In this document: piece after piece, positions 11,835 through 15,805 of the stretch
How the letters are laid out: every line of letters starts with the position of its first letter
How positions within the stretch are numbered: the stretch's first letter is position 1
Assembly: GCF_000443995.1 (NCBI RefSeq)
Contig: NZ_AUMC01000003.1
Span: 682,001 to 746,000, forward strand
Origin: Bacteriovorax sp. BAL6_X
Lineage (GTDB): Bacteria > Bdellovibrionota > Bacteriovoracia > Bacteriovoracales > Bacteriovoracaceae
Length of the DNA: 64,000 nucleotides
Reading direction: 5' to 3'
The notes under the pieces: model-generated
The model's database searches: none
What the model saw: the letters and a program-made list of their open reading frames with translations, nothing else
Told to the model about the DNA's origin: nothing
Made by a program: the position numbers and the translations under genes

Positions 11835-13826
11835 TTAGAATTGATTGATCATTGCTTGTGCATCAAAGCCAAATTTCTTATAGAGCTCAAGTGCAGTGTA
11901 TGAAGACTGACCGAAGTGGCCATCATTTCCAAGAGACTTCATTTCAAACTCAAGTCCTTCTTGCTTTAGAGCGTGACATAATATCGCACCAGCACCAGCT
12001 GTTAATTGGTGATCTTCAACAGTTACAATTTTATTACCATTCTTTGTTAGTTGATCTTTAAATGTTTCAACATCAATCTTGTTAATGAATGGATTATTGA
12101 TAACAGTAATATTCTTACCTTTTGATTCAAGTTCTGTCGCGGCCTTAAGTGCCTGTTGAACAAGTGGCCCGTGAGTTACAATAATCCCATCTGTCCCTTG
12201 TCTTAGTACTTGTGCTTTTGCCCAGTTGTAGCTTCCACCTTCTATATATGATACTGGGTGCTTTTCACGGCCAAAGAAGAATACAGTTGTCTCTGGTGTT
12301 TCACCTTTGTTAATAGCTTCTTCGTATCTCTTAATCGCTTGATACATTAGACTTTCAGCTTCTTCTTTTGTTGAAAGGGCGATTACTGTTGTATTTGGAA
12401 TACCTGCGACTGCTGAGAAATAAGTTGTTGCTTGGTGAGAAGCACCATCAGCAGCATCTTGAAAGCCTGTATGCGAGAATAAACAAATCACTGCACCTTG
12501 TGAAAGTTGAGACATAATTAAAGGAAGATTCCCTTTTGTGACACCAAATTGTGCAAATGTATCGACAACTGGAATGAAGCCTTGTTTTGCCATTCCTACC
12601 GCAGTCGAAACCATATTAGATTCTGCAATACCAATGTCAACATAGTGACCTGGAAATTCTTTATGGAACCCCGCAACTCCTGTAGAGCCAGCAAGGTCAG
12701 ACGTTACAGAAAATACTGGAAGCCCTTCCTTTGTCGCTTTAATCATTGCATTGGCAAGACCTGGTTGAACCTTATCTGAAGGTACAGAACTCTTTGGGCC
12801 TTCTTTAGGTGCCGGTTTTGAAGCTAGGATTTCATTTGCCCAATTTGTAAATTCTTCTGGACAAGATTCACCGCTATAAATTTCTTCAAGGAAAGAGACA
12901 AGTTTGTCGTCATATGCCCCAAGTGGATAGCCGTGCCCACCAGATTTAGCTTCTTCAGTTGCTTTTACTCCATATCCTTTGACTGTCTTGATAACAAGAG
13001 CAACAGGCTTGAGTTCATTAGATTTTGCTTTTGCAATATTTTCTTCGATTGCTTGATAAACTCTTTCTAGATCGTGTCCTTCTTCTACTCTTACAACGTC
13101 CCACCCCATTTCTCTTAGGGCCAAAAAGCTTCCTTTCATATCAAAGCTATCTTCAGTAATACGTCCACCAAGTTTAGTATTATTATCACTGATGATCATA
13201 ACAAATGGATTCATCTTTCCTTTCTGTGCAAGACCAGGAATTGCGGCCATGGCCTCACGTGCTTCACCTTCCATACAGCCGCCATCTGAGATTGTACAAA
13301 TTGTTACACGATCGTTTCCAATCGCTCTATCCGCAAGAGCAAGACCTTGAGCTTGAGGAAGCCCTGAACCAAGTGGCCCGTTAGAAATGAAAACACCTTC
13401 TGGATTTAAGTGAGCCTCACCGTGACCAGTAAGTTTAGAAGTTATTGAACGAAAACCTCTTAGGCTTTCAAATGTAAGGCCATCAAAACCTAGGTTTGCA
13501 CGAAGAGCGTAGATCCCGTTTTCAGCGTGGCCAGCATCGTTTACAAAATTAAATTTCTCAAACCAATTTGGTCCTTGTGAGAACATAATTGAGTGTAAGG
13601 CACTCATCATCTCAGCGAAAGCCGCAGGGCCTCCCCAGTGGCAAGCAGCTCCACCAATTACAGCGTGTTGATTCATTAGGGCAACAAGAGCTCTCGTGGC
13701 CTTTGGGTCAGCAAGAGTGATTTCTTCTCCAGCTAAATTATGAATTTTGGTTGCGAAAATTGGGGCCGTTGTCGGTGCCGATGCAAGATGATTTTTTACT
13801 TTTAATGGGCTGATTGTTGCAGTCAT
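11835..13826 (-). CDS. tkt: Transketolase
   Basis: A 663-residue thiamine-diphosphate enzyme moving two-carbon units between sugar phosphates in the pentose phosphate pathway. Seen are the N-terminal HGEAHLNPEGVFISNGPLGSGLPQAQGLALA, the ThDP/Mg motif TISDGGCMEGEAREAM ending in IISDNN, the pyrimidine-domain segment FSVTSDLAGSTGV, the catalytic-Glu region DIGIAESNMVSTAVGMA and the C-terminal domain. Length fits transketolase (about 660). Sequence details differ from classical TktA, so a close family member cannot be excluded. GGAG sits 7 bases before the ATG. A complex inverted repeat lies upstream. Confidence 0.85.
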   Translation of the reverse strand: MTATISPLKVKNHLASAPTTAPIFATKIHNLAGEEITLADPKATRALVALMNQHAVIGGAACHWGGPAAFAEMMSALHSIMFSQGPNWFEKFNFVNDAGHAENGIYALRANLGFDGLTFESLRGFRSITSKLTGHGEAHLNPEGVFISNGPLGSGLPQAQGLALADRAIGNDRVTICTISDGGCMEGEAREAMAAIPGLAQKGKMNPFVMIISDNNTKLGGRITEDSFDMKGSFLALREMGWDVVRVEEGHDLERVYQAIEENIAKAKSNELKPVALVIKTVKGYGVKATEEAKSGGHGYPLGAYDDKLVSFLEEIYSGESCPEEFTNWANEILASKPAPKEGPKSSVPSDKVQPGLANAMIKATKEGLPVFSVTSDLAGSTGVAGFHKEFPGHYVDIGIAESNMVSTAVGMAKQGFIPVVDTFAQFGVTKGNLPLIMSQLSQGAVICLFSHTGFQDAADGASHQATTYFSAVAGIPNTTVIALSTKEEAESLMYQAIKRYEEAINKGETPETTVFFFGREKHPVSYIEGGSYNWAKAQVLRQGTDGIIVTHGPLVQQALKAATELESKGKNITVINNPFINKIDVETFKDQLTKNGNKIVTVEDHQLTAGAGAILCHALKQEGLEFEMKSLGNDGHFGQSSYTALELYKKFGFDAQAMINQF

Positions 13827-13885
13827 TAACTTCTCCGAATTCTTTGATTTTCAATAACTTATAAAAGGTATCACGAGGGAATTTT

Positions 13886-13936
13886 TTCTGGCCAGAGAAT
13901 ATTTACTGACCAAATAGTTTGGCAGTTTGGCCAGAA
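13886..13936. promoter_or_regulatory. Nested inverted repeats upstream of transketolase
   Basis: An outer pair TTCTGGCCA (13886-13894) and TGGCCAGAA (13928-13936) encloses an inner hairpin ACTGACCAAA/TTTGGCAGT (13905-13926, one bulge). It lies 60-110 bases before the transketolase start and about 130 bases before the small divergent gene. It could be an operator, a leader RNA structure or a protein-bound cruciform; the sequence does not decide. Confidence 0.45.
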
Positions 13937-14068
13937 TCTGTAAAACGTAAATATCTGAAAATACAGTAGCTATAAATTTATTAAGTTTTATTTTAGAATG
14001 ACGATAAAATCTATAGAAACTATTGTTAAAGACAATTTATCTATCTGAAATAATAAGGGGTTGTAGTA

Positions 14069-14308
14069 ATGTGTGATGCATGTTCAGCTGCAGGGCGTAA
14101 CTGGTCATTGGCCAACGGACCTCGCAGAAGCAAGATGATTAAAGCTAGGTTGTACTCAAGCTTTAATGGAAGAGAAGTTAAAATTAAGCTTTGCTATCTA
14201 TGTTCTATTAAATTATTTATGGGAGGAGAAGACCTCTTCTTAAAAGATAATCCCTCCTTGAATTATGAATTGACTACTCAGCATGCTGGAAGTGAGTTCG
14301 ATTTTTAA
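14069..14308 (+). CDS. Small two-CxxC (zinc-ribbon-like) protein
   Basis: A 79-residue protein not recognised by name. It has an N-terminal CDAC pair (Cys2, Cys5) and a second CYLC pair about 40 residues later, spaced as in a zinc ribbon, with several basic residues between (GPRRSKMIKARLYSS). This suggests a small metal-binding, possibly nucleic-acid-binding protein. AAGGGG precedes the ATG by 9 bases. A terminator hairpin follows 42 bases after the stop and reaches up to the aldehyde dehydrogenase start. Confidence 0.7.
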   Translation: MCDACSAAGRNWSLANGPRRSKMIKARLYSSFNGREVKIKLCYLCSIKLFMGGEDLFLKDNPSLNYELTTQHAGSEFDF

Positions 14309-14349
14309 GCAATATTAATTGACCCATGATTTTCACAATAGATACAATA

Positions 14350-14374
14350 CCACCTTAAGCAAGGTGGTTTTTTT
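14350..14374 (+). terminator. Terminator hairpin that also holds the SD of the next gene
   Basis: ACCACCTT and AAGGTGGT form a perfect 8-bp stem around AAGC, followed by six to seven T residues and then directly by the ATG at 14375. The 3' arm contains AAGGTGG, the only plausible ribosome-binding site for the aldehyde dehydrogenase, at 8 bases from its ATG. The same bases therefore look like terminator and ribosome site. Confidence 0.8.
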
Positions 14375-15805
14375 ATGCAAAATTTTTCGCAATTTCGTTC
14401 CTCATTTGTGGACGATGAATTTCTTTACGGTGAAAACTCAATAGAAGTTTTAAATAAATACGATCAAAGTATTTTAAACGAAGTGGATCTCTTAGCTTCT
14501 TACCAGTATGAAAAAGTTATGCAGTCGTCACTTAATGCATTTGAGGAGTTTCAAGATTTTGATAGCGCACAAAGAAGTAAGTTACTTTTTAAACTTGCTG
14601 ACTTCTTAGAGGAAGAGGCTTCATTCTTTTCTCATTTAATATGCTTAGAAGCAGGAAAACCAATTAGCTATGCGAAGGGTGAGATTAGACGTTGTGTGGA
14701 AACTATTAGACTTGCTGCGGAGAAGGCCCGTCATCACAGTAGCGAAACTCCTGATCTCTCTTATGGAGCAGGATCAGATAAGATGGCCATGGTTCGACAC
14801 GAACCAGAAGGGATCATTTTTGGTATCTCACCATTTAACTTTCCACTCAATCTAGCTCTTCATAAGATTGCACCAGCTCTTGCTGTTGGTTGTAGTATTA
14901 TCGTTAAGCCTTCACCGCAAACTCCAATTACTTTACTGGCCTTTGCTAAATTACTTTCACGTGTTGGATTTCCAAAGGGTGTTGTAAATATTGTGATCTG
15001 TGAAGACGAACTTGCACAAAGATTCTTAGAAGATGACAGAATTAATGTCTTCTCGTTTACGGGAAGTGCTAAAGTTGGTTGGGCCCTTAAGGCCTTAAGT
15101 GGAAAGAAGAAGTGTCTTTTAGAGCTTGGTGGAAACGCCGCCGTTATTGTTAATGACGTTGAGGATATGGAGGCCGTTACGTCACAGATTATTACCGGCT
15201 CATTTCTATACTCAGGACAAATTTGTATTTCAACCCAGAGAGTTTTTATCTCCAGTGAGATCTTTGAGGAGTTTGTAGAACAATTTCTTGAGCAAGTGGA
15301 GACTATTGGCTCAGGTGACCCTAGAGATGAGAGTGTTATCAATGGGCCTGTGATTAACGAGGCGTCTCTTGAGAGAATTCATCAGTGGGTGCAAGAGGCC
15401 ATCTCAAATGGGGCCGAGTTACTATGTGGCGGCCATATTATTGATGAAGATCATCATATCTATGCGCCAACAGTCCTAACGAATACAGACTTGGATATGA
15501 AGGTGGTTTCAGAGGAAATCTTTGGCCCTGTTGTAATTCTAGAACCTTATGACTCATTCTCGGAGGCCATTGAGCTTGTAAATGATTCAAAATATGGACT
15601 CCAAGCTGGTGTTTTTACGAACAGCTTAGTAAATATGAAGGAAGCTAGCCGAAGAATTGATGTTGGAGGAATTATCTTCAATAACGTCCCTGGATTTCGC
15701 ATGGATGCTATGCCTTATGGAGGGATTAAAGATTCTGGACTTGGCCGTGAGGGGATCGCGTATGCGATGGAAGATTATACTCGTAAGAAGCTAATCTTAT
15801 TTTAA
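14375..15805 (+). CDS. NAD(P)-dependent aldehyde dehydrogenase
   Basis: A 476-residue aldehyde dehydrogenase superfamily protein. Cofactor and catalytic landmarks are ISPFNFPLNLALHKIAPAL, VKPSPQTP, FTGSAKVGW, the general-base LLELGGNAAVIV and the nucleophile region YSGQICISTQRVF (Cys), with the C-terminal EEIFGPVVILEPY, VNDSKYGLQAGVFT and GGIKDSGLGREG. The features resemble the succinate-semialdehyde/lactaldehyde-type branch, but the substrate cannot be fixed from sequence. It begins a same-strand cluster with the cytochrome and GDPD genes. Its ribosome site lies within a hairpin. Confidence 0.93.
   Translation: MQNFSQFRSSFVDDEFLYGENSIEVLNKYDQSILNEVDLLASYQYEKVMQSSLNAFEEFQDFDSAQRSKLLFKLADFLEEEASFFSHLICLEAGKPISYAKGEIRRCVETIRLAAEKARHHSSETPDLSYGAGSDKMAMVRHEPEGIIFGISPFNFPLNLALHKIAPALAVGCSIIVKPSPQTPITLLAFAKLLSRVGFPKGVVNIVICEDELAQRFLEDDRINVFSFTGSAKVGWALKALSGKKKCLLELGGNAAVIVNDVEDMEAVTSQIITGSFLYSGQICISTQRVFISSEIFEEFVEQFLEQVETIGSGDPRDESVINGPVINEASLERIHQWVQEAISNGAELLCGGHIIDEDHHIYAPTVLTNTDLDMKVVSEEIFGPVVILEPYDSFSEAIELVNDSKYGLQAGVFTNSLVNMKEASRRIDVGGIIFNNVPGFRMDAMPYGGIKDSGLGREGIAYAMEDYTRKKLILF

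Follow-up and report, generated by a model that had tools for sequence, protein, structure and literature searches.

A terminator hairpin over the Shine-Dalgarno sequence of an aldehyde dehydrogenase gene in Bacteriovorax: a candidate lock on read-through RNA that exempts the gene's own promoter

In the 64,000 nucleotides of the Bacteriovorax sp. BAL6_X genome analysed here (the window, to which all coordinates refer), a small hairpin directly in front of an aldehyde dehydrogenase gene probably acts as a composite boundary, a reading to which we give a probability of roughly 70%: one that combines a terminator with a translational lock on read-through RNA and lets the gene's own promoter escape. 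Analysis of the locus shows the anatomy of this element, its conservation, covariation in its stem and a computed difference in the accessibility of the Shine-Dalgarno sequence (SD). In the proposed mechanism, RNA from the upstream gene would meet the hairpin and the seven T residues behind it (T7) as an intrinsic terminator, and any RNA that escaped would leave the aldehyde dehydrogenase untranslated because the same hairpin covers the SD. The gene's own promoter would be built into the element, with the 5' arm of the stem (the anti-SD) serving as the DNA between the -10 box and +1; own-start RNA, without most or all of the anti-SD, could not form the terminator and would have its SD exposed. 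The own promoter would be exempt from the lock because its start lies inside the hairpin, and since own-start RNA would escape both controls, aldehyde dehydrogenase expression would depend on local initiation. If this holds, terminator, translational lock and promoter are packed into about 60 bp and a promoter evades its own terminator by starting within it, which would offer a test of chromosomal guarding against read-through at the translation step. It would also caution against taking every gene that sits immediately after a terminator for an annotation error.

All features lie on the + strand. The upstream gene, taken from the open reading frame list, encodes a 79-aa protein (14069..14308) and is separated by 66 bp from the ATG (14375..14377, read from the sequence) of a 476-aa aldehyde dehydrogenase family protein (14375..15805). 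A promoter-like pair occupies this space, consisting of a -35 box TTGACC (14319..14324), an 18-bp spacer and a -10 box TACAAT (14343..14348) whose last base is directly 5' of the stem. The hairpin has an 8-bp stem spanning 14349-14368, loop included: a 5' arm ACCACCTT (14349..14356), which is the anti-SD in read-through RNA and would also be the promoter's -10-to-start stretch, a loop AAGC (14357..14360), and a 3' arm AAGGTGGT (14361..14368) that holds the SD, AAGGTGG (14361..14367). The T7 run of the putative terminator (14368..14374) reaches right up to the start codon. The original prediction had described just this arrangement, with an 8-bp terminator stem directly before the gene, its only SD in the 3' arm and a T run ending at the ATG, and inspection of the sequence upholds it; inspected by eye, the 20 nt upstream of the ATG contain no second SD. 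Its placement of the hairpin start at 14350 was one base late.

The identity of the downstream gene is clear from its alignment with PF00171 (E 3e-142). The annotated ATG is supported because M1 is invariant in an alignment of six orthologs, and the reading frame offers no other start codon until a GTG 33 nt downstream. The 79-aa protein has two CxxC motifs, an N-terminal CDAC and a central CYLC, and matches no family in Pfam or NCBIfam. Its gene has an ortholog directly upstream of the dehydrogenase in all six genomes of the genus sample (the window's own, G000, and G001-G005), and its transcript would run into the hairpin.

The element shares with ordinary intrinsic (rho-independent) terminators a GC-containing stem, a short loop and a T7 run, here a stable stem-loop of eight pairs with T7 immediately after it. 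An ordinary intrinsic terminator, by contrast, neither supplies the SD of the gene behind it, as this 3' arm does, nor holds, as is predicted here, the transcription start of the following promoter. A terminator scan of 3.4 kb returned five sites against 2.6 +/- 1.4 expected, two of which are this palindrome, one per strand, with the most pairs of all. Short + strand pieces out-fold their shuffles (z -3.1, with 1 of 200 shuffles as good, and z -3.4, with none of 200), the result being less clear for a 112-nt read-through piece (z -1.9, 8 of 200 as good). Three longer read-through contexts (132, 191 and 372 nt) all keep the hairpin in their minimum free energy (MFE) structure. The upstream message would probably be terminated at the hairpin.

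The same architecture is found throughout the genus sample. All six genomes encode the dehydrogenase, the other five proteins being 49-55% identical to that of the window, and in all six a TTGA, a spacer of 17-18 and a TANAAT stand at the foot of an SD-pairing stem that is followed by the ATG; the stem, drawn at its longest, extends into the -10 box in G002 and G005. Across species, 45 of 46 cells are paired when eight pairs are counted, against at most 68% of cells in slid-register controls. Two pairs have changed on both sides, one of them showing four pair types, and three of the eight are invariant. Of 500 shuffles, 3 reached the observed percentage of paired cells, 3 the covariation score and 3 the count of cells changed on both sides; the count of pairs changed on both sides was reached by 63 and that of pair types by 101, in a test whose six sequences give it limited power. 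By this comparison, stem pairing is apparently maintained by compensatory changes. A covariance model of the element (R1), run on the six genomes with at most the best 150 candidates per genome scored, ranked the six orthologous sites as its six best hits (E 6e-8 to 3e-4); the seventh (E 0.002) comes from the G005 site read on its other strand, and the remaining hits have E > 0.03.

Could the hairpin be a plain terminator that belongs to the upstream gene and has come to lie hard against the dehydrogenase gene, with its purine-rich 3' arm serving as the SD for lack of space? The anatomy would be identical and the difference would lie in what is selected, the translational block of read-through RNA becoming an unselected by-product. 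The canonical stem with its T7 run fits this account, as does the small intergenic space (66-73 nt from stop to ATG in the six genomes), and SD-covering hairpins are not enriched as a class in the survey described below. One species in the genus argues the other way. T7 is retained in five species, whereas G002 reads GGTGGTATTTC-ATG instead; the terminator there is, judging by its T run, weak or lost, yet a 10-bp stem over the SD has been retained. This suggests that the lock is maintained apart from termination, since G002 lost the T run and kept the stem.

Relatives outside the genus also speak against a plain terminator. A dehydrogenase match at E <= 1e-125 is present in 38 other genomes of the family, of which 27 loci were scanned and 25 gave usable frames; a first contig search for relatives found none and a second found 80 more distant relatives. 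At 21 of the 25 the gene is present but the region around the first start codons tested holds no such stem, and several of these loci carry a plain SD. At 4 of the 25 a stem ends no more than 14 nt from a start codon among the first four tested, and the genus-type element was seen at none of these 25 scored loci. G084 (L130) has a terminator just upstream of a separate SD-like GAGGAG, and G092 (L119) has the hairpin CCCTATAATAGAGTTATAGGG, with a TATAAT -10 box inside its 5' arm and a 3' arm ending in GGG that adjoins an AG (SD). The stem at L011 lies within the reading frame, and at L012 a -10-like box lies in a stem adjoining the ATG. Some 6 nt upstream of the ATG, the dehydrogenase starts at these last two loci (G012 and G010, respectively) show a -10-like box, which suggests leaderless mRNA. 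Given the G002 stem and the stemless relatives, we regard a plain terminator as unlikely.

The exemption of the dehydrogenase's own promoter, as the composite boundary requires it, depends on where transcription starts. A promoter scan of the single sequence over 3.4 kb found four sites against 7.2 expected, no better than chance, and the promoter call therefore rests on conservation. Transcription from sigma70 promoters starts about 6-9 nt after the -10 box. As the -10 box ends at the base before the stem, the expected start lies inside the hairpin (14354..14357), past most of the anti-SD, and the predicted leader of the own-promoter RNA is 18-21 nt long. The position of the -10 box at the stem foot is read directly from the sequence in 6/6 genus genomes; the start itself is a prediction, a guess within 4 nt. 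We infer in this way both promoter activity and the start site of the aldehyde dehydrogenase.

Computed folding separates the two transcripts widely. In read-through RNA the SD is paired in all six species, with a joint accessibility at 37 °C of 1e-10 to 3e-7, in agreement with the original prediction of a hidden SD; for starts 6-9 nt after the -10 box it is 0.001 to 0.14. By computation, every one of the six species opens the SD at least some 2e4 times more in own-start than in read-through RNA, and at the locus in the window the difference at 37 °C is about a million-fold. When the start is shifted base by base at 20 °C, computed opening rises from 7e-8 (start at 14349) to 4e-3 (14354) and is level until 14359, so that initiation a mere 1-3 nt past the -10 box would leave the SD mostly closed (7e-8 to 1e-4). 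The SD of own-promoter RNA is itself incompletely free, with a computed mean unpaired fraction of 0.10-0.64 at 37 °C across the six species (lowest in G003, 0.10-0.12) and a computed joint opening of only 0.000-0.018 at 20 °C. Because of these computed opening values, the element appears much more closed to upstream RNA than to its own, and on this model translation of read-through RNA would be blocked.

A second alternative is a regulated leader, in which transcription starts upstream of 14349 and a protein, a ligand or temperature opens the hairpin, as in an attenuator, riboswitch or thermometer. A stable stem that hides the SD is indeed what such elements have. However, an Rfam scan of 13800-14700 gave nothing at or above a gathering score, its one match (E 0.84, 17.6 bits against a gathering score of 46) lying away from the hairpin, and a riboswitch or other Rfam cis-regulator was rejected on this basis. 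The loop differs among species in both sequence and length, and the hairpin persists in the MFE of all three read-through contexts. An RNA thermometer was likewise rejected, with the stem computed to stay closed at living temperatures: opening in read-through RNA is 6e-11 at 20 °C, and melting is unlikely because it is still about 4e-6 at 50 °C. The original prediction had left a factor, melting or a start inside the hairpin as ways to expression; melting fares badly, and the third is favoured by a -10 box that abuts the stem in 6/6 genomes. The expected start would thus match the condition that the prediction itself had named against the need for a factor or melting, a start within the stem-loop that leaves the SD free. 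A regulated leader is accordingly improbable. That the dehydrogenase is made mainly from the upstream transcript and translated despite the hairpin, by ribosome melting or re-initiation, is very improbable even with a conserved gene order on the same strand, as close translational coupling is unlikely with the upstream stop 66 nt before the ATG, the hairpin bears a terminator T run in 5/6 species and the intergenic space holds a conserved promoter-like pair.

How common are such composite boundaries? A survey of 2.06 Mb from five genomes covered 1,794 called genes, 1,382 of them with an SD, their starts assigned by a simple rule. SD-covering hairpins as a class numbered 10 against 9.7 in shuffles, and the idea of a widespread genome feature was rejected for this lack of enrichment. 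Those with a T run numbered 5 against 0.80 among the 1,382 SD genes; L285 and L346 are two of these five cases, and L146, also among them, was discarded because its called start is wrong and falls within a longer frame. Adding an abutting -10 box left 2 against 0.15, the dehydrogenase locus of the window being one of the two by selection.

Elsewhere in the window's own genome, manC (mannose-1-phosphate guanylyltransferase; G000:C10:818812-818840, L405 and L365) carries a second composite, in which the extended -10 TGATACGAT is followed by a stem hiding TAAGG, a T6 run and the ATG; the name, like those of the carboxylase and decarboxylase below, is our reading of the sequences. A manC match exists in 65 family genomes, and 4 of the 30 loci examined carry the composite: G000, G001 (extended -10 TGATATAAT), G004 (extended -10 TGATACAAT) and G015, which belongs to another genus and has a TAAAAT adjoining a stem over AGGAG. 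The G004 3' arm is GGGG, a poor SD that the SD rule used left unscored. G003 and G002 are without the manC composite, and G005 has no manC match. Pattern and model searches of the family brought up further composites at a carboxylase-like gene (G061, G062) and at a gene in G114. At a decarboxylase-like gene (L276-L279), all four fetched species, of one genus, have a stem CTCCTGA..TCAGGAG over the SD, T7 and ATG, with a -10-like sequence that is merely A/T-rich. The -35 is unconvincing in the manC, carboxylase, decarboxylase and G114 cases, with 3-5 of 6 matches.

Several observations lie beside these cases. Upstream of the -10 and about 27 nt before the stem of the carboxylase-like gene (L196, L265; G061, G062) lies CCTCCTAAAGAA, a stretch able to base-pair along the full TTCTTTAGGAGG arm (12-14 bp); this pairing would be an alternative, longer lock in that gene's read-through RNA. 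At L135:5085-5115 a strong terminator follows a glutamate dehydrogenase-like gene near the ATG of a signal-peptide-like gene, with no SD seen. At L412 (G005) a stem over GAGAGG, followed by T7, leads straight into the ATG of a signal-peptide-like frame of 139 aa, with no clear -10. At an rpoN-like gene (L273, G004), an SD hairpin and T7 abut the ATG 11 nt past the preceding frame, and no promoter was seen. This gene, an rplJ-like gene (L267) and L270 were left uncounted for want of a convincing -10.

In the 125 family genomes, with the best 55 candidates of each scored, model R1 gave a hit at E <= 0.05 in 34; among 34 loci inspected from this search and the genus search together, a frame of 60 aa or more begins at the model's end in two (L189, L196), and most of the rest resemble ordinary terminators. 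Twenty regions were chosen by eye from model and pattern matches; in 11 of them the ATG opens a frame of 40 aa or more, L267, L270 and L273 being among these 11. The numbers from the pattern searches themselves (125 genomes each) were set aside, as ordinary terminators and coding matches abound and backwards controls match too. The composite class is rare in the family, and the cases counted were selected rather than gathered exhaustively. It is a tentative suggestion, which we hold at less than even odds, that Bacteriovoracaceae repeatedly evolve a self-exempting terminator, a palindrome of about 20-30 bp that terminates, locks escaped RNA and carries the next +1, confining translation to RNA begun within it. 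Were that so, the position of the start within a few nucleotides would set the strength of translation.

By analogy, the logic of the element resembles that of phage T4 gene e and Bacillus subtilis sigG. Read-through RNA also hides the transposase start in IS10/IS50, where the purpose is mobile element protection and the hairpin is not known to be a terminator. No description of the composite in this bacterial group was found in the open-access literature, and the available excerpts of PMC3890552, PMC7858274, PMC4448216 and PMC3627812 have no direct bearing on it. In phage T4, according to excerpts of two papers (PMC3014915, PMC2988022), a long early RNA hides the start of gene e and of I-TevI and the late-promoter RNA is without the 5' arm; soc and 49 are named there as further SD/AUG hairpins, and a 100-fold effect is reported for the lysozyme. 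Gene e shares with the present locus an SD hidden in RNA reading in from upstream and an own promoter immediately upstream whose RNA is, or here would be, without the hairpin's 5' part. It differs in having a phage late promoter and a role in timing, whereas here a sigma70-like promoter serves a metabolic gene on a bacterial chromosome, and the same excerpts describe neither a terminator role nor a T run abutting the start codon (PMC3014915, PMC2988022). In B. subtilis, an excerpt of PMC5942855 proposes that a hairpin blocks the read-through RNA entering sigG (spoIIIG) from the upstream operon and is unable to form in own-promoter RNA, which would likewise give a chromosomal gene a read-through lock absent from its own transcript. 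That stem has 20 or more pairs, belongs to the world of sporulation sigma factors and is not described in the excerpt as a terminator (PMC5942855), whereas here an 8-bp terminator stem directly follows the -10 box. What is new here is that the putative lock is itself a predicted intrinsic terminator, with a T run reaching the start codon and a 5' arm that would be the promoter's -10-to-+1 stretch.
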